Source: an uncultured Clostridia bacterium (lineage in GTDB: Bacteria; Bacillota; Clostridia; Christensenellales; Aristaeellaceae). Taken from it: a stretch of DNA of 44,095 nt. The notes under the pieces were generated by a model. That model saw nothing but the letters and a program-made list of their open reading frames with translations. It was not told where the DNA came from and made no database searches. Below, piece after piece: positions 34,855 to 44,095 of this stretch. Each line of letters starts with the position of its first letter. Positions within the stretch are counted from its first letter, which is position 1. A program made the translations under genes and the position numbers. The DNA is taken from contig CAMENN010000012.1 in NCBI GenBank assembly GCA_945928315.1, positions 1 through 44,095 on the forward strand, read 5' to 3'.

Positions 34855-37797
34855 ATGGAAAAGCAATTCCGACACAACCGGTTGATCATGGTCTGCGTGC
34901 TGTTGATCTTCCTGGTGCTCTCCTGGGCCCTCGTGAACATCCTGGTCGGCCAGGTCGGCAGGAGCGCGGACGAGGAGGTCCTGACCCACATCCGGGAGAA
35001 CACGGAGCAGCTGTATTACAGCTTCAGCAACCGGATTGAGGACACCTGGACGATCATGCGGATTGAGGCCCAGAGCCTTGGCCGGCTGGCCGATGCCTCC
35101 GAGCAGGAGGTGCTCGAGGTGATCGCCCTGCTGCAGGAGCAATCCGTCGCCAACGACGTTTACCTGATCAACAAGGAGGGGCGGTATCTGGACGGCAGCG
35201 GCCGGGCCGGGCAGTGGCAGCTGGACGCGAGCATGCTGCCGCTGCTGCGCGGCGAGGAGACGCTCTGCCGCCTGCGCCAGCGGGATACCGGCGCGGACTG
35301 CCTCGACTTTGCGGTCCTGCTGGATACGCCGCTGACCGAGCACGGCTACTGCATCCTGCTGCTGGAATACACGCCGGACACCTTCCTCAAGGTGCTGGAG
35401 CTGAAGACCTATGGCGGGCAGGGCGTCGCCTATGTGGTGGACAGCGCGGGGTGGACCCTGTTCAGGTCGGAGGGCACGCTGCCCACCGACCATGTGCAGA
35501 ATTACTTTTTCTACCAGTTTCTGGAGGGTATGGCGTTCGAGGGGAATGAGGAGATCACGGACGCGGATGCGCTGCGCGCCGCGGTCAATGCGGGAGAGTC
35601 GGACGCCGTCTATGTCTCCGGGGAGGAATACGCCTATGCGCTCAGCTTCCGGCCCCTGAGCATCATGGACTGGCACCTGATCCTGATGGTGGAGCGCTCC
35701 GTCATCTCGGGCGGGCGCATGGAGTACATGCGGCAGGTGCAGTGGATCGCGCTGTGCGCCAACCTGTTCATCCTGGCGGTCTGTCTGGGCTTCTACTGGC
35801 TCAATTCCCTGTGGATCAACCGGCGCGCGGCGGTGCAGCTCTCCAGCCGCGAACGGATCATCCATGTGCTGTCCGTCAACAGTCAGGGCGTCTATCTGCT
35901 AATGGAGTCCACCACGGGCCGGTGCACCTTTGCCAGCGAGAGTCTGCAGAGCATGCTGGGCGTCGAGCCGCAGTCCCTGATGGGCAGGCCCGTGAGCATC
36001 CTTTTGGAGATGTTCGGCAATCCGGCGCTGCAGAAGATGCTTCAGGCGTGGGACAGGAAGGTCATGCTCGATTCGGAGCGCTTTCTCTTTCACGCGGAGC
36101 CGGATGATGAGGGCAGATACCTGCGCGTCCGCGTGTTCCCACCCCTCAAGGGCGAGGTGGTCATGGCCGTGCTGGATGAGACGGCGGATGCCCGGCGCGA
36201 GAAGGCGCTCGAGGACGCTGTCAACCTGGCCAGAAGCGCCAATCAGGCGAAGAGCATGTTCCTCTCCAACATGAGCCACGACATCCGGACTCCGATGAAC
36301 GCGATTATCGGCTTCACGACGCTGGCCATCGCCAATCAGGACAAGCCGGACAAGGTGAAGGACTATCTGTCTAAGATCCTTGCCTCGGGCAATCATCTGC
36401 TATCGCTGATCAACGATGTGCTCGACATGAGCCGTATCGAGAGCGGCAGGATTCATCTGGACGAGCAGGAGGCCAACCTCTCCGACATCTTCCACGACCT
36501 CAAGACGATCATCAGCGGACAGATTCACGCCAGGCAGCTCGAGCTGTACATGGACATCATGGACGTCACGGACGAGGAAGTGTTCTGCGACAAGACGCGC
36601 CTCAACCAGGTGCTGCTCAACCTGCTCTCCAACGCCATCAAGTTCACAGCGCCGGGAGGCACCATCACCGTGCGCGTCGCGCAACTGCCGGGCGCGCCGG
36701 AGGGGAAGGGGCTGTACGAGATCCGCGTGAAGGACACCGGCATCGGCATGAGCTCGGAGTTTGCCCGGCGGATCTTCGAGCCGTTTGAGCGCGAGCGCAC
36801 CTCGACCGTGAGCCGGATTCAGGGCACGGGTCTGGGCATGGCCATCTCCAAGAACATCATCGACATGATGGGCGGGGAGATTGCGGTCACGACCGAGCAG
36901 GACAAGGGGACGGAATTCGTGGTGCGCCTGACGCTCAAGCTGCAGTCCGAGCGCCGTCGTGTGGAGGTCATCCGCGAGCTGGCCGGCCTCAAGGGGCTTG
37001 TGGTGGACGACGACTTCAACACCTGCGACAGCGTCACCAGGATGCTCCTGCAGGTGGGCATGCGCTCGGAGTGGACCCTGTCCGGCAAGGAGGCCGTGCT
37101 CCGTGCGAGGCAGTCGCTGGAGATCGGCGATCCGTTCCAGGCCTACATCATCGACTGGCGCCTGCCGGACATGAACGGCATCGAGGTCACCCGCCAGATC
37201 CGCCGCCTGGGCGACGAGACGCCGATCATCATCCTCACGGCGTACGACTGGGAGGAGATCGAGGTGGAGGCGCGTGCCGCGGGCGTGACGGCCTTCTGCG
37301 AGAAGCCGATGTTCATGAGCGACCTTCGGGATACCCTGCTGCGCGCGCTGGGACGGGAGACGGAGAAGACGGACGCGCTGCCCGGCGCGGACGGAGATGA
37401 AGACCTCGCGGGCAAGCGCATTCTGCTGGTGGAGGACAACGACCTGAACCGCGAAATCGGCTGCGAGATCCTGACGGAGTACGGATTTGCCGTCGATGAA
37501 GCGGAGAATGGCGAGGAGGCCGTGCGCAAGGTGTCCCGCTCCGCGCCCGGGCAGTACGATCTGGTGCTGATGGACATTCAGATGCCCATCATGGACGGCT
37601 GCGAGGCCGCACGCAGGATTCGCGCGCTGGAGAATCCGGCGCTGGCGTCTCTGCCGATCATCGCCATGACCGCCAACGCCTTTGAGGATGACCGCAGGGC
37701 GGCGATTGACAGCGGCATGAACGGCTTCCTCTCCAAGCCCATCGACATCGCCGAGGTGATCGAGACGATCCGGGCGGTGTTCAGGCAGAAGCGCTGA
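34855..37797 (+). CDS. Hybrid sensor histidine kinase with two C-terminal receiver domains
   Basis: Two TM segments around an extracytoplasmic region, PAS-like segment, SHDIRTPMNAIIGFT H-box, GTGLGMAIS, receivers GLVVDDDFN..YIIDWRLPDMNGIE and ILLVEDNDLNREIG..LVLMDIQMPIMDGCEA. Confidence 0.94.
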   Translation: MEKQFRHNRLIMVCVLLIFLVLSWALVNILVGQVGRSADEEVLTHIRENTEQLYYSFSNRIEDTWTIMRIEAQSLGRLADASEQEVLEVIALLQEQSVANDVYLINKEGRYLDGSGRAGQWQLDASMLPLLRGEETLCRLRQRDTGADCLDFAVLLDTPLTEHGYCILLLEYTPDTFLKVLELKTYGGQGVAYVVDSAGWTLFRSEGTLPTDHVQNYFFYQFLEGMAFEGNEEITDADALRAAVNAGESDAVYVSGEEYAYALSFRPLSIMDWHLILMVERSVISGGRMEYMRQVQWIALCANLFILAVCLGFYWLNSLWINRRAAVQLSSRERIIHVLSVNSQGVYLLMESTTGRCTFASESLQSMLGVEPQSLMGRPVSILLEMFGNPALQKMLQAWDRKVMLDSERFLFHAEPDDEGRYLRVRVFPPLKGEVVMAVLDETADARREKALEDAVNLARSANQAKSMFLSNMSHDIRTPMNAIIGFTTLAIANQDKPDKVKDYLSKILASGNHLLSLINDVLDMSRIESGRIHLDEQEANLSDIFHDLKTIISGQIHARQLELYMDIMDVTDEEVFCDKTRLNQVLLNLLSNAIKFTAPGGTITVRVAQLPGAPEGKGLYEIRVKDTGIGMSSEFARRIFEPFERERTSTVSRIQGTGLGMAISKNIIDMMGGEIAVTTEQDKGTEFVVRLTLKLQSERRRVEVIRELAGLKGLVVDDDFNTCDSVTRMLLQVGMRSEWTLSGKEAVLRARQSLEIGDPFQAYIIDWRLPDMNGIEVTRQIRRLGDETPIIILTAYDWEEIEVEARAAGVTAFCEKPMFMSDLRDTLLRALGRETEKTDALPGADGDEDLAGKRILLVEDNDLNREIGCEILTEYGFAVDEAENGEEAVRKVSRSAPGQYDLVLMDIQMPIMDGCEAARRIRALENPALASLPIIAMTANAFEDDRRAAIDSGMNGFLSKPIDIAEVIETIRAVFRQKR

Positions 37798-39446
37798 TTG
37801 CCTGACTTTCCCGCGCGACAGGACGCATGCCTTCGGACAAAGCAAAAGCCTCGGGCGGGGCGGTCCGGGGGCATGCGTTTTTGCTGTTCGGGCAGAGCGG
37901 AGGGTAGAGAGGATTTCCGATGGGACAGGAAAAGCCCCGGACGAACGCATCGTCCGGGGCTTGCTGGCTCCCCAGCCAATCTGATATCCGAACCGCTATT
38001 ATTCTTTTTCTCGACGAGGTGCAAGTCGTTCAGCGTAATGGTTTCCGATCCTTCATGGAAATTGTAGGTGATGACCAGCCTGTCGTCGTAGAGAAAGATG
38101 GCATTGACGAAGGTGTCGATCAGCATTTTGCGTTGGGACTGTTGCTCGACATTCATGCTGCGAAAGCGATGGAGGAAGAAGCGAAGCTGTTCCTCACTGA
38201 TGCGGGGCTTGGAGAGCTTCTCGCAGGCAATTTTGCTTTCGAGGCTGTCCCGCGCAGCTTCCAGCTCATCCAGGCGTTCCTTGGTCGAGCGGGTCAAAAG
38301 CCCCTGTTCAATGGCGCTTAGCAGATTGCGGATAGCATTGTTGGTGTCGCGGAGCTGCTTTTCGTACAGCGGAAGCAGCGAGTTTTCTGCGTTTTGCAGC
38401 TCCATCAGAGCAGCCACAATAGCGTCAACTGTTGCGTCGTTCATCAGCATCTTCATTGTTGCATTGACGACGAGATCCTCGATCCATTCCTTCCTGACGG
38501 CCTTCTTCTTGCAGTCTGCCCTTCGTTTCTTGACGGAAACGCACTTGTAGTAGTGATGGACCGCTCCGCTGCGGCTGGTACCGCACTCCCCGCATAGATA
38601 GGCACCGCAATACCCGCAGAACAGCTTGGTTGTCAGCAGGTAATCATCCTCTGCCTTATGACGGGCAGGGGCTTTTTTGTTTTTGGCCATCATATCCTGA
38701 ACGCGGTCAAACAGGTTCTGTGGCACGATGGCCGGGATCGCATTGGGAACGATGACGTCTTTATAGCTGTATTCACCGATATAGCGTCGGTTGTTCAGCA
38801 TTCTCTGTATGCTGCCAGGCTTGATTTCTCCGCCAAGGGTATTTCGGATGCCGTTTTCCTTGAAAAAAGCGGCAATCTCTTTCATAGTTGAACCTTCTGC
38901 ATAGCGCTTGAATGCCTCAAGCACGAAAGGAGCGGTTACTGGATCAGGCTGAAAGTGCTGCTCCGCATCAATGATATAGCCAACAGGGCGTGTGCCGCCG
39001 TTGCATTTTCCTTTGAGAGCGTTTTCAGTCATGCCCCGGTGAACCTTCTCGGCAAGATCGGCAGAGTAATACTCAGCATAGCCCTCCAAAACGGATTCAA
39101 GGATGATTCCCTCTGCACCCTCGGAAATCTGCTCTGTTGCAGAGACAACCTTGACACCGTTTTTCTTGAGCTGCAGCTTATATCGGGTGCTGTCATACCG
39201 ATCACGGGAAAATCTGTCCAGCTTCCAAACGATAACCATGTCAAAGAGACGCTTATCGCTGTCCTTGATCATGGCTTGGAACTCAGGACGATTGTCTGTT
39301 CTGGCGGAATAGGCCCGATCAATGTAATGCTTCAGAATTGTGATGTCGTTCTTCTCAGCAAAGGCAGTGCATTCACGAATCTGACCTTCGATGGATTCCT
39401 CACGCTGATTATCGGAGGAATAGCGGGCATAGATGACGGCTTTCAT
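37578..39446 (-). CDS. Large serine recombinase (C-terminal approximately 150 aa likely non-native read-through)
   Basis: YARYSSDNQREESIEGQIREC, KLDRFSRDRYDS catalytic domain, recombinase domain, zinc ribbon (CGYCGAYLCGECG), coiled-coil; ORF continues into antisense of the hybrid kinase 3' end. Confidence 0.88.
   Translation of the reverse strand: MKAVIYARYSSDNQREESIEGQIRECTAFAEKNDITILKHYIDRAYSARTDNRPEFQAMIKDSDKRLFDMVIVWKLDRFSRDRYDSTRYKLQLKKNGVKVVSATEQISEGAEGIILESVLEGYAEYYSADLAEKVHRGMTENALKGKCNGGTRPVGYIIDAEQHFQPDPVTAPFVLEAFKRYAEGSTMKEIAAFFKENGIRNTLGGEIKPGSIQRMLNNRRYIGEYSYKDVIVPNAIPAIVPQNLFDRVQDMMAKNKKAPARHKAEDDYLLTTKLFCGYCGAYLCGECGTSRSGAVHHYYKCVSVKKRRADCKKKAVRKEWIEDLVVNATMKMLMNDATVDAIVAALMELQNAENSLLPLYEKQLRDTNNAIRNLLSAIEQGLLTRSTKERLDELEAARDSLESKIACEKLSKPRISEEQLRFFLHRFRSMNVEQQSQRKMLIDTFVNAIFLYDDRLVITYNFHEGSETITLNDLHLVEKKNNSGSDIRLAGEPASPGRCVRPGLFLSHRKSSLPSALPEQQKRMPPDRPARGFCFVRRHASCRAGKSGNQRFCLNTARIVSITSAMSMGLERKPFMPLSIAALRSSSKALAVMAMIGRDASAGFSSARILRAASQPSMMGI
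37824..37882 (+). terminator. Candidate terminator after hybrid kinase
   Basis: CGCATGCCTTCGGA .. TCCGGGGGCATGCG stem with about 26-nt loop followed by TTTTTG. Confidence 0.5.
37932..37962. terminator. Perfect 13-bp hairpin, possible bidirectional terminator
   Basis: AAGCCCCGGACGA-ACGCA-TCGTCCGGGGCTT. Confidence 0.6.
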
Positions 39447-39796
39447 GATTGCTCCTCCATGATGCGATATAGGCTGTCCTTTAGCTTCGCATTAGCAGGC
39501 GTCCCGGGCTCAAAGCATACATCGAGAAATCTGCGGATCTCTTCCTGCTGTGGTTTGAGCTTCGGATGGAAACCGTAGGTTTGCCCCTGCGGATTATCCG
39601 TTCGGCCAAAAATATAATCAAGGGATACATCGAAGTAGTCTGCATAGCGTCTGAACAGGGCAACAGACGGCGTGCTTTGACCATTTTCGTACCGATTGAG
39701 GCTGGATTGAGAGGTGCCCAATTCAGCAGCAAGCTTTTCCTGAGAAATGCCGACGGATTCTCTCAGGGAACGAAGACGTTTGGCACAGGATTCCAT
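39443..39796 (-). CDS. XRE-family transcriptional regulator
   Basis: RLRSLRESVGISQEKLAAELGTSQSSLNRYENGQSTPSVALFRRYADYFDVSLDYIFGRTDNP; 4-bp overlap with recombinase; RBS AGGAGG. Confidence 0.93.
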   Translation of the reverse strand: MESCAKRLRSLRESVGISQEKLAAELGTSQSSLNRYENGQSTPSVALFRRYADYFDVSLDYIFGRTDNPQGQTYGFHPKLKPQQEEIRRFLDVCFEPGTPANAKLKDSLYRIMEEQS

Positions 39797-39821
39797 AGGA
39801 GTCACCTCCTCTAATCTATGG

Positions 39822-39853: not shown

Positions 39854-39919
39854 CCCGAAGGAGTTTGATGCAATCATTTCTCAGAAGAAACAGAGAATAT
39901 TGTCAAGTGTATCGGTAGG

Positions 39920-39988
39920 ACAGCTCTGGACAGTTTCGGCAAAAATGCTGTGTTAGAATGGTAGGGCAAAAGATGATGCCATGGTCTA
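39920..39988 (+). repeat. Phased-repeat promoter-like element, copy 1 (degenerate)
   Basis: ACAGCTCTGG-ACAGTTTCGG then AAAAATGCTGTGTTAGAATGGTAGGGCAAAAGATGAT..TGGTCTA, matching 43561-43639. Confidence 0.7.
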
Positions 39989-40167
39989 CAGCTGCATCAA
40001 AAAACTGTTCTGCAAAAATCTGTTGTATTTTCCCGTGAGGCTTTACCCGGATGCAGATTTCTTCTCTCTGCCAGATCATCAGTCGCCCATCGGATTTACA
40101 ACAATGTTACACGCACACAAAGAGGGGTATGTTATAATCAGAAGTTGAAAGGAAGGAGGCGTATGTG

Positions 40168-40836
40168 ATGGCCAATATCCTAGTTGTTGAAGATGACACT
40201 GCGATTCGTCAGGTGCTTGTTATGCATCTGGAACTGGTTGGTCATACATGCCGAGAAGCGGATAATGCATCTGTTGCGCGTACCTTGCTGGATGACTTTG
40301 TGCCGGATGCTGCACTGTTGGATGTGATGATGCCCGGGGAGGATGGATTTTCGCTCGGTGAAGCGCTGATTTCGCGAGGGATTCCAGTGCTGTTTGTCAC
40401 AGCGAAGACAGCGGTGTCTGACCGCGTTCGTGGACTGCGCATGGGCGCAGAGGATTATATCCTCAAACCGTTTGAGCCGGCAGAGCTTTTGGCGCGAGTG
40501 GAAAACATCTTGCGCCGTACGCATAGAGAGGATGCTGTGTTTACTTGCCCGGGGCTGGAAATTGACATTGGGGCCCGCCGTGTCATCTGTTCCGGAAATC
40601 TTGTGCCGCTTACTTCACTGGAATTTGACCTGTTGGCAATGCTTGTGCGTCGCCGTAATGTCGCTATGAGCAGAGAAGAACTGCTTGACGGCGTATGGGG
40701 CTATCATTATGCAGGAGAAACGCGTACTGTAGATGTGCATGTGCAGCGGCTGCGCAGCAAGATCGGCGCGGGCTTTATCGAGACGGTGTACAAATACGGT
40801 TACCGCTTCAACGATAGTGGAGGAGGACCGGTATGA
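40168..40836 (+). CDS. OmpR/PhoB-family response regulator
   Basis: ILVVEDDTAIRQ..ALLDVMMPGEDG..FVTAK..AEDYILKPFEP plus winged helix TVDVHVQRLRSKIG. Confidence 0.95.
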   Translation: MANILVVEDDTAIRQVLVMHLELVGHTCREADNASVARTLLDDFVPDAALLDVMMPGEDGFSLGEALISRGIPVLFVTAKTAVSDRVRGLRMGAEDYILKPFEPAELLARVENILRRTHREDAVFTCPGLEIDIGARRVICSGNLVPLTSLEFDLLAMLVRRRNVAMSREELLDGVWGYHYAGETRTVDVHVQRLRSKIGAGFIETVYKYGYRFNDSGGGPV

Positions 40837-42011
40837 GAACGCAAATTGTTGCCGCCATGACGGCTTTGGTGCTTCTGCTCTTCCCTCTTGGTGCGTTCAT
40901 GATTGTGCATCAGGGCTTCTCGCTGACCATGGAACGGGAGCGTGCGCGTGCCCTTTCTGAAGAGGCGGCCATTGCCCGAGCGGTAGCATTGGAGCTTTCC
41001 GGAAAAAGTAAAGAAGGGGTATTTACAACGGCTTCCTCCCTGCAGCGGCGATACGGATCGCAAGCCTTGTCAGTTGCGCTCGTCTATCGCGGAGAGACGA
41101 TGGCGGGTAACGAGCGCCCACAGGTACAGGGGATGGAAGAACTTCTTGAAACGCAAGGGCGTGCCACACTGTTGGATAGCTCGACACAAAAGCTCTTCAT
41201 TGCTCATAAACTTTCAGACGATTTGACACTGCTTCTTGCCTCTGATGTATCAGCAGTGTATGAGTTCCGGCGCGAACTGGCGTTTTGGGCAGGCGGATTG
41301 AGCGTTGTTGGCGTCGTTCTGAGCTGCATGCTCTCCGTTATTGTATCCGGCTGGCTGGCCAGGCCTTTTAAGCAGTTGGCGGCGCAACGCCAGGAGCTGA
41401 TCGATGCGTTGGCGCACGAAATGCGCACGCCGCTGACAGCCATTCTGGGCGGCGTACGCTTGCTGGAGCGTGCGAATTTGGATGAAGAAAAACGCGTCAG
41501 ATTGCTCGGCTCCATGGCAAAGGAGGCGCAGCGCCTTTCCGATATGGGTGATCGTTTGCTTATGCTTACTCGGCTGGAGCATGATGCGCCGGAGTTTGCA
41601 CCGTTTTCCTCAATGGAGATGGCGCGGGAGGCGCTTGATGCGTTCGACAGTGTCATTCTTGAAGGAGAAGACGCCGTCTTTACAGGCGAGAGGGAACTGA
41701 TGATCTGCCTGCTGCGCAATCTTGTGGTCAATGGTATGCGCGCAGGAGGAACAGAACCTGTTCGCATAACGCTTATGAAGAATGGTTTTTCTGTTACGGA
41801 CAGCGGATGCGGTATGACGAAGGAACAGATTGCCCGTGCGTTTGACCCGTTCTATAAGGCAGACAAGTCCCGTGCCCGCACGCATGGCGGTGCCGGTCTG
41901 GGGCTTACGCTCTGCAAAAAGATTGCGCGTTTGCACGGCGGCAAACTTGAGATTGAATCCGAAGTGGGCAAAGGCACGCGTGTTGTTTACCACTTTGATA
42001 CAAGTCTGTGA
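40833..42011 (+). CDS. Sensor histidine kinase
   Basis: Two TM segments, H-box ALAHEMRTPLTAILGGVRLLE, DSGCGMT, GAGLGLTLCKKIARLHGG; 4-bp overlap with response regulator. Confidence 0.93.
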   Translation: MRTQIVAAMTALVLLLFPLGAFMIVHQGFSLTMERERARALSEEAAIARAVALELSGKSKEGVFTTASSLQRRYGSQALSVALVYRGETMAGNERPQVQGMEELLETQGRATLLDSSTQKLFIAHKLSDDLTLLLASDVSAVYEFRRELAFWAGGLSVVGVVLSCMLSVIVSGWLARPFKQLAAQRQELIDALAHEMRTPLTAILGGVRLLERANLDEEKRVRLLGSMAKEAQRLSDMGDRLLMLTRLEHDAPEFAPFSSMEMAREALDAFDSVILEGEDAVFTGERELMICLLRNLVVNGMRAGGTEPVRITLMKNGFSVTDSGCGMTKEQIARAFDPFYKADKSRARTHGGAGLGLTLCKKIARLHGGKLEIESEVGKGTRVVYHFDTSL

Positions 42012-42118
42012 ATACTCTGAAATGGGATTTGTCCTATCATGAAATCAACAAAAGGACATCGTCTGTGCGCGGGATTCTGGCCGTTGCGCAGACGTCCCAA
42101 GAAACAAGGAGGATTTGT

Positions 42119-43483
42119 ATGAAGAAATGGATTATGTCTTTGGCGCTCTGCTTGCTGATCCCTGTGGGCGCGATGGCCGTAACAGAGGGTGTGGTAGAAG
42201 CTGCGGATCAGGTGGAAATGGACCAGATACCTGTGTCTGAGCTTTCCTTTCTTCCGGACAGCAGCTATTACGCAGATTATGGCGATTGGATGCCGGCCTG
42301 GGAAAATGCCGAAAGTTGGGTGGAAAGCGAATTTGACGGAGAAAGCTATTTTGACGTGGAGCAGCGCCCGCGCATGACAGCGGGTGAAGCGGTACGCGCC
42401 GAGAAGCTGCTTATGGATTACAGGGCTGACAAAACGATCTACAAAGGCGAGAGTATCCTGAATAAGATGGAGAATGTGATCGTTGGCGTGTATGCGCTGA
42501 GCCCTGAAGATTTTGATGGCGAAGCCGCTTTTGTAATTCTGCCCGGCCCGTGTATGACGGATGAACAGATCCTGGGCGTGATCGATGCGTATGATCAGCT
42601 GGGGTTGACGTTTGATCCTGCGAAGCTGAGTGCGCGCAACTGTGCTCGTGGCGGCGGGATTGAAACGAACCGCTTTATGAATGAAGAAGAGCGTGCCCGA
42701 TATGAAAATCTGGCTCACCTCGTTGAGCGTGGGCTTCTGAATACCTCTGATGTGGATGAGGCGAAGGTGCTCAATGTGAAGCTGGACAGCCGTTACTTCT
42801 GCAACATGCAGGATTTCACGCTTCTCCCCTATCGCGCAGTGACGGATGAAGAATTTATGGCATTGCTGGTAGGCCTGGGATATCGCGATAAAACGGATGA
42901 AATCAGCTATGACTCCGTTGAGAAGGAGAGCCGTGCAATTCTCAATGGCAGGCTTGGTGCTGCTTTGTCCATGGAGTTAACTCAGATCTATCATGAGGGC
43001 AGCTATGTGCCCAGAATGTATGATGAGAGCTGCAATGAGGGTTATGACTGGAATGCGCAGGGCCGCAGATGCTACGGAGCGAACTACACCTATTATACCC
43101 CGGATGGTATTTTGGTCTATGCAGACGTCATGTTTGACTGGGAGACGAAAGAGCTGGTCGAGGCGAGCGTGATGTACAGCAAGAAAGGCGGCGGCGAACC
43201 GCTGGGGGATGATGCGCCGGTGCTTACCAATGAGCAGATTGCATCTGCGATTGATGAAGCCGAGGAGCAACTAAGTGTCTCCGGAATGGAATGGCATCTG
43301 CTGACTGACAAAGAAATCTGGACCAATTGGGGACCGTGCACGATTGCGCGTGCCCGGATTGATGAAGGTGAATGGATAACCGTTTATATCGGTTGTGAAG
43401 ATGGCAGGATGCGCGGTCTTGAGCTCAGCGGCGGCACACTGGTAGAATCGCTGCCAGAGGACGATATGCCAGCGAATGGATAA
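42119..43483 (+). CDS. Secreted protein of unknown function, 454 aa, downstream of two-component system
   Basis: Signal peptide MKKWIMSLALCLLIPVGAMA; RBS AAGGAGG; long acidic extracellular sequence with no family I recognise. Confidence 0.85.
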   Translation: MKKWIMSLALCLLIPVGAMAVTEGVVEAADQVEMDQIPVSELSFLPDSSYYADYGDWMPAWENAESWVESEFDGESYFDVEQRPRMTAGEAVRAEKLLMDYRADKTIYKGESILNKMENVIVGVYALSPEDFDGEAAFVILPGPCMTDEQILGVIDAYDQLGLTFDPAKLSARNCARGGGIETNRFMNEEERARYENLAHLVERGLLNTSDVDEAKVLNVKLDSRYFCNMQDFTLLPYRAVTDEEFMALLVGLGYRDKTDEISYDSVEKESRAILNGRLGAALSMELTQIYHEGSYVPRMYDESCNEGYDWNAQGRRCYGANYTYYTPDGILVYADVMFDWETKELVEASVMYSKKGGGEPLGDDAPVLTNEQIASAIDEAEEQLSVSGMEWHLLTDKEIWTNWGPCTIARARIDEGEWITVYIGCEDGRMRGLELSGGTLVESLPEDDMPANG

Positions 43484-43549
43484 AGGTGTGGTAAACAACT
43501 GTTTTATTGATTACTGCATCAATGAAGAAAGAGTATGATCAAACTTAAA

Positions 43550-43639
43550 ACAGTTTAGGACAGTTTGGGACAATTTAGTACAATTTGGGACAAAATGCTG
43601 TGCTATAATGGTAGGGTCAAAGATGATATTCCTGGTCTA
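43550..43639 (+). repeat. Phased-repeat promoter-like element, copy 2
   Basis: ACAGTTTAGG ACAGTTTGGG ACAATTTAGT ACAATTTGGG (10-bp units, 43550-43589) then TGCTATAATGGTAGGGTCAAAGATGAT. Confidence 0.85.
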
Positions 43640-43750
43640 TCCTTTGACCATGATCTTTTCCATGCTCAATGGCTTTCGCTGGATACCGAGCAGTCCGTCT
43701 TGTAGCCGAGTGTTCGTCGTGCCCGGCCGAAAGCCCTTGGAATCCTGCTT

Positions 43751-43870
43751 GGCGCGAATCGAATCCTAAAAGTTGGCACACAATGTCGCACGGTGTCGCA
43801 TGATGTCGCAAGACGCCCAAGTCAATACATGCTATAATGTAAACTGTCAAAGAAGGACAAGAGAGCATAC
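43751..43870 (+). repeat. Phased-repeat promoter-like element, copy 3 (tandem unit A)
   Basis: TGGCACACAA TGTCGCACGG TGTCGCATGA TGTCGCAAGA then CGCCCAAGTCAATACATGCTATAATGTAAACTGTCAAAGAAGGACAAG. Confidence 0.85.
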
Positions 43871-43877
43871 TCAGCCC

Positions 43878-43985
43878 GGCGCAAACCGAGCCCCAAAAGT
43901 TGTCACCGGATGTCGCCAAAAGTCGCGAGACGCCCAAAGCAATATGTGCTATAATGTAAGCTGTCAAAGAAGGGCGAGTGCGCAT
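43878..43985 (+). repeat. Phased-repeat promoter-like element, copy 4 (tandem unit B)
   Basis: TGTCACCGGA TGTCGCCAAA AGTCGCGAGA then CGCCCAAAGCAATATGTGCTATAATGTAAGCTGTCAAAGAAGGGCGAG. Confidence 0.85.
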
Positions 43986-44053
43986 GATGCAGCCCTGCAT
44001 CGGAGAAACCCATCCACGGGCATTACATCCGGTTGATCATATAAAACCAAACC

Positions 44054-44085
44054 AGCGTTGGCGGAAAAACCGTCAGCGCTTTTTC
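44054..44085 (+). terminator. Rho-independent terminator-like hairpin
   Basis: AGCGTTGGCGG-AAAAA-CCGTCAGCGCT-TTTTC. Confidence 0.65.
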
Positions 44086-44095
44086 TTTGCCCAAA

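Follow-up and report, generated by a model that had tools for sequence, protein, structure and literature searches.

We analysed a 44,095-nt stretch of DNA (the window), which is the complete contig C12 of its genome, and located within it four promoter-like elements, copies 1 to 4, at 39918-39977, 43548-43627, 43774-43868 and 43901-43985, all read on the forward strand. Copies 2 to 4 stand at the head of an integrative mobilizable element (IME) of about 9 kb, whose gene content was read in relatives, and which is cut in the window by the contig end at 44095. The first-pass annotation had described four copies sharing direct repeats and an extended -10 element; all four were recovered, and both the 10-bp phasing of the repeats and an enrichment of TGYTATAATG were confirmed.

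A self-similarity scan of the full window at shifts of 7 to 13 bp, with at least 18 of 25 matches counted as strong, gave two clusters at a shift of 10, both inside copies 2 and 3 (43541-43564, score 21; 43773-43786, score 20), and none anywhere in the window at shifts of 7, 8, 11 or 13. Allowing up to one mismatch, TGYTATAATG occurs six times in the window against 1.04 expected, a count that was reached by no shuffle, and its three exact matches are those of copies 2 to 4, each with TGCTATAATG. The core TGTGCTATAAT alone is a widespread promoter core in the clade, so that the -10 element says little by itself, and what is distinctive is the combination of 10-bp units, an extended -10 element and GTCAAAG.

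The copies fall into two types. Copy 2 carries a putative type A operator of four full units and a half (GGACANTTTN; 43548-43592), followed by the extended -10 element and an initial GTCAAAG (43601-43624), with a predicted start at about 43616. Copy 3 carries a putative type B operator with a degenerate first unit and three exact units of TGTCGCANNN (43774-43813), and its extended -10 element and GTCAAAG (43830-43852) place the predicted start at about 43846. The putative type B operator of copy 4 reads TGTCACCGGA TGTCGCCAAA AGTCGCGAGA (43901-43930), and its extended -10 element and GTCAAAG (43947-43969) accompany a predicted start at about 43963. From there, a leader extends to the contig end (43963-44095) ahead of parM, with a hairpin and T-run resembling an intrinsic terminator at 44054-44086 (-18.3 kcal/mol, z -3.9); its last part (44048-44095) is a 100% match to the sequence upstream of parM in the related contig L038. 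Over 85 bp, copies 3 and 4 share 79% identity; copies 1 and 2 share 78% over 60 bp. Searched at up to three mismatches, both unit types are absent from the rest of the 2.94-Mb genome, beyond the window's contig; Rfam gave no match, and a plasmid collection no DNA match to the array.

The membership of copy 1 in this family holds as far as its similarity to copy 2 goes, but its two units are degenerate, as are its TTAGAAT and GGCAAAAGA, and it looks like a decayed relic of the type A promoter. Its neighbours on the minus strand, genes for a large serine recombinase (37578-39446) and an XRE-type regulator (39443-39805), may be what is left of a further mobile element.

Copy 1 lies 200 bp upstream of the gene for a regulator with a Trans_reg_C domain (40168-40836). 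OmpR-family sites are direct repeats of about 10-11 bp, and the first-pass annotation had proposed this OmpR/PhoB-type protein as the one that binds the arrays. We find this scarcely credible. Among orthologs of the genus, the 11 best (69-76% identity) all lack 10-bp arrays upstream; they share a different upstream box (TTTACAACTTTGTTACA-like) with its own TATAAT, which is present in the window at about 40097-40139, while the arrays of G025, G028, L035 and L038 stand without this two-component system. The local regulator was rejected as the binder on the strength of these orthologs. The box at 40097-40139 itself reads TTTACAAC(A/T)(A/T)TGTTACA plus TATAAT, with TTACA units 11 bp apart, and is likely to be an autoregulatory site of the response regulator. 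An alternative reading of the units as LytTR half-sites was also set aside: no LytTR gene was found linked to any copy, the local regulator being of the Trans_reg_C kind and those linked to copies elsewhere of the Ltr type described below. Spo0A-like boxes (TGTCGAA), a further candidate, were dropped after the Ltr linkage emerged.

Related promoters beside Ltr genes

Other genomes of the family have the same promoters immediately 3' of genes for phage-late-type activators (Ltr; ArpU/DUF1492/phrog_36), with parA and a conjugation operon following closely. Over 68 bp, type A copy 2 shares 81% identity with the promoter that follows the Ltr gene in the element of G026/G797. Type B copies 4 and 3 resemble the promoter after the Ltr gene of G933, with 85% identity over 97 bp (promoter included) and 81% over 85 bp, respectively. 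In G933, the Ltr gene (phrog_36, 4.6e-18) is followed by the type B promoter, a hairpin and parA-parB-sortase genes; its conjugation genes encode a VirD4 coupling protein (PF02534, 8e-58), a VirB4-like ATPase and an NlpC/P60 protein, and a tyrosine integrase lies on the other side. In G026 and G797, the Ltr gene (phrog_36, 3.6e-15; DUF1492/ArpU-like in G026) directly precedes the type A promoter, a hairpin and parA-parB-sortase, and VirD4 and PrgI were read in G797. Both elements additionally carry SpaA-like proteins, and by their gene content they are integrative and conjugative elements (ICEs). A third, ICE-like record (L079) has an Ltr gene, about nine 10-bp units of a different sequence, CTGTGCTATAATAGTAGTGTCGAAAG, a hairpin and parA, and G020 holds a remnant of a type B promoter. 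The hairpin and T-run before parA in G933, G026 and L079 recall those of the IME leader.

The idea that the window's elements are activator-dependent promoters without a -35 hexamer, their units one helical turn apart, draws support from these similar promoters beside Ltr genes. The further proposal of the first-pass annotation, that two unit types may mean two paralogous regulators, is supported too, with a candidate for each, namely the Ltr proteins encoded directly upstream of closely similar promoters in the two kinds of ICE.

In phages of Gram-positive bacteria, Ltr proteins activate the late operon by way of direct repeats that precede a TATA box; deletion of either the repeats or the TATA box abolishes activity of the phi13 late promoter P23, and the repeats bound by Alt of TP901-1 span -76 to -32 (PMC13123087). 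The arrays in the window, as tandem imperfect direct repeats upstream of a TATA box or extended -10 element, have the arrangement of these late promoters (Ltr/Alt/RinA/ArpU). They differ in occurring as several tandem copies with two unit types, and in lying in an IME. The activator gene stands directly upstream in the phages, and likewise at the homologous ICE promoters, but is missing from the IME; in G026, G797 and G933, Ltr precedes a conjugation operon rather than packaging genes. We found no description of Ltr-type regulators in ICEs in the literature searched, most subscription journals falling outside it.

Pattern scans across the order and class revealed that the exact motifs are rare outside the genus, and Ltr loci were therefore searched instead. 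A phrog_36 protein search of the genus and family gave 106 Ltr loci whose 3' regions were read. Strong shift-10 phasing was found 3' of the Ltr gene in 23 of these, compared with about 0.1 expected in shuffles and with 4 of 391 generic tiles (p = 4e-13; the tiles include some of these elements). Many of the loci follow a common plan of regulator gene, tandem 10-bp units, extended -10 element, GTCAAA or GTCGAA near +1, and hairpin. The recognition helix of Ltr covaries with the unit: five loci, for example, combine AGTTCAC with RRWVL, and four combine ATTCCAG with SNVFK. This covariation between the helix-turn-helix and the unit could possibly reflect a specificity code for the Ltr superfamily. 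At many Ltr promoters (L040-L181) a terminator-like hairpin lies about 60-130 nt on, ahead of the first gene, which suggests that antitermination or attenuation belongs to this promoter class. A second candidate for a stacked-promoter element, also cut by a contig end, was seen in G005 (L017:1480-1800), with tandem TGTCAC- and TGTCCG-type arrays and a near-identical CGTGCTATGATNATAATCGGAG core. Type B pattern scans of the viral_contigs set gave at first no match and later two chance matches unlinked to Ltr genes, and no relatives of the ParM or G026-Ltr proteins were found there.

The mobilizable element downstream

Relatives of the IME, carrying further copies of the promoters, were identified in G025, G028, the human-gut record MT837999 and L038, a contig of a metagenome-assembled genome (MAG); later genes were read only as far as each contig reaches. 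In order, the element comprises the hairpin leader, parM (actin-like), a small open reading frame (ORF), a MobV relaxase (Mob_Pre, 1.4e-29), primases, TnpV, a RhuM-like gene and a large serine recombinase. Although relaxase and recombinase are present, we saw no secretion genes or own mating apparatus in these relatives, and no IME protein matches phrog_36 or phrog_248, so that no Ltr is encoded. The 3' part of the element opens contig C3 of the window's own genome (97% identity over 3.5 kb), so that what is missing between C12 and C3 is in all likelihood the middle part of the IME. The copy in MT837999 (L035:2029-7648) adjoins a type I restriction-modification locus.

The promoters are ordered B-A-B-B in G025 and G028, A-B-B in the window and MT837999, and at least B-B-B in L038, where the contig end cuts the series. 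They might be non-functional remains of an ancestral ICE, from which the IME would have arisen by loss of Ltr and of the transfer genes; the decay of copy 1 is plain, and the -10 element or initial sequence is altered in copies of G028 and MT837999. We nevertheless consider this quite unlikely, as the five IMEs retain three or four copies each, with units, -10 elements and GTCAAAG mostly intact; arrays change in length between relatives by whole units, copy 3 of G028 being shorter by exactly 20 bp; and two different ICE types are represented within one element.

The position of the arrays, about 150-700 bp upstream of parM and of a small ORF that could encode ParR, raises another possibility. 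Plasmid centromeres of the parC kind typically have direct repeats of about 10 bp, and the arrays might be such a centromere and operator, bound by a small ParR-like protein, encoded after parM, that would repress the promoters and link the DNA to filaments of ParM. ParMRC loci have the same layout, with repeats ahead of a parM-like gene and a small gene after it, and the parM of a Ruminococcus albus plasmid is also preceded by direct repeats, of another sequence. Yet the same promoters and units are found in the ICEs upstream of parA-parB, directly 3' of an Ltr gene and with no parM-small ORF pair, and the repeats are thus not confined to parM-ParR elements. Our estimate of the centromere explanation was lowered because these promoters precede parA beside Ltr genes. 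Several ParM relatives (L039, L074, L075, L076 and L078) have no such array in the upstream stretch read, the two unit types on opposite strands would be awkward for a single ParR, and the small ORF has no significant match to a ribbon-helix-helix (RHH) domain. Altogether, we judge a parC-like role unlikely. In the R. albus plasmid pRUMAL02 (L077), three TTGACA units, three TTGTCA units and a TGCTATACT core precede parM at about 2800-2960, and may be parC or a similar promoter.

Probable induction by helper elements

The IME encodes no Ltr but has promoters of both ICE types and a leader terminator, and the simplest account of this combination is induction by helper ICEs. We consider it probable that copies 2 to 4 are stacked Ltr-dependent promoters of two specificities, which make the mobilization operon of the IME inducible by such helpers. 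They would be activator-dependent sigma-A promoters of the phage-late type (Ltr/ArpU/RinA superfamily), at which several molecules of a small activator resembling sigma region 4 would occupy the tandem 10-bp units from the same side of the helix (about -72 to -36 in copy 3) and recruit RNA polymerase to the extended -10 element without a -35 hexamer. Type A and type B units would be the operators of the Ltr proteins of two different helper ICEs. The ICEs read here appear to use the Ltr class for transfer: each would turn on its own transfer operon via Ltr, and the same protein, acting in trans, would turn on the partition, mobilization and replication genes of the IME, presumably with readthrough of the leader terminator and co-mobilization by the helper. 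The IME promoters are best described, from their homology, as a helper-dependent variant that is related to Ltr promoters and may work like them, and not as a complete Ltr locus.

Several observations weigh against this reading. The type B pairing of Ltr gene and promoter is known from one intact ICE (G933), besides a type B promoter remnant in G020. The IME and an ICE with the cognate Ltr were found together in no sampled genome, the IME-bearing genomes searched being MAGs or metagenome scaffolds. No cognate Ltr was recovered from three incomplete MAGs: G000 has one full-length phrog_36 match only, with no such array beside it, and G025 and G028 have none at E <= 1e-13; a helper ICE, however, need only be present transiently. 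Finally, the genes after the array encode an actin-like ParM and a small protein that is possibly of the RHH kind, and ahead of such genes a parC centromere with repeats of about 10 bp would be expected as well.

The helper could instead be a prophage, whose late activators would fire the IME promoters at induction. Ltr proteins and the same promoter architecture are frequent in phage-like loci of the genus. For both unit types, however, the nearest matches belong to ICEs, where parA and conjugation genes accompany the promoters, and a relaxase is encoded in the IME; a prophage helper seems very doubtful to us.

Helper-driven induction of mobilizable elements has well-studied precedents. AcaCD of IncA/C (IncC) plasmids induces promoters of SGI1, which also lack a -35 box (PMC4605294, PMC5058578), and SetCD of the SXT/R391 ICEs induces MGIVflInd1 (reviewed in PMC5704250). 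By analogy with SGI1 and related islands, the IME would be a mobilizable element whose promoters, without an obvious -35 hexamer, answer a helper's master activator, although AcaCD is FlhDC-like, while the activators proposed here are of the phage-late, sigma-region-4 type and would act in clostridial hosts. The IME further differs in that what appear to be operators for two types of helper stand in series before a single operon, and its induction is inferred here from sequence. MGIVflInd1 would likewise be comparable in that an ICE activator turns on the genes of a hitch-hiker, but activator family and host differ, and the targets there are the integrase and recombination directionality factor, whereas here a partition and mobilization operon would be the target.

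We are evenly divided on a broader proposition, that one mobilizable element stacks transfer promoters taken from two types of helper ICE, with a separate phage-late-type activator for each, so that any of several helpers can trigger it, and that a readable code connects the Ltr helix with the unit. To our knowledge, such multi-helper logic is not known from SGI1-like systems. Detailed knowledge of how helpers regulate IMEs is limited to few systems, most of them in Gammaproteobacteria (AcaCD, SetCD). The locus suggests that, in gut Clostridia, ICE transfer and the mobilization of satellites both rely on a different family of activators, one that also serves phage late regulation, and that operators for two or more helpers can be present in one satellite. 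Short DNA motifs would then predict which ICE mobilizes which IME, and the recognition code of the phage late-activator superfamily would become testable over about 100 natural pairs of regulator and operator.

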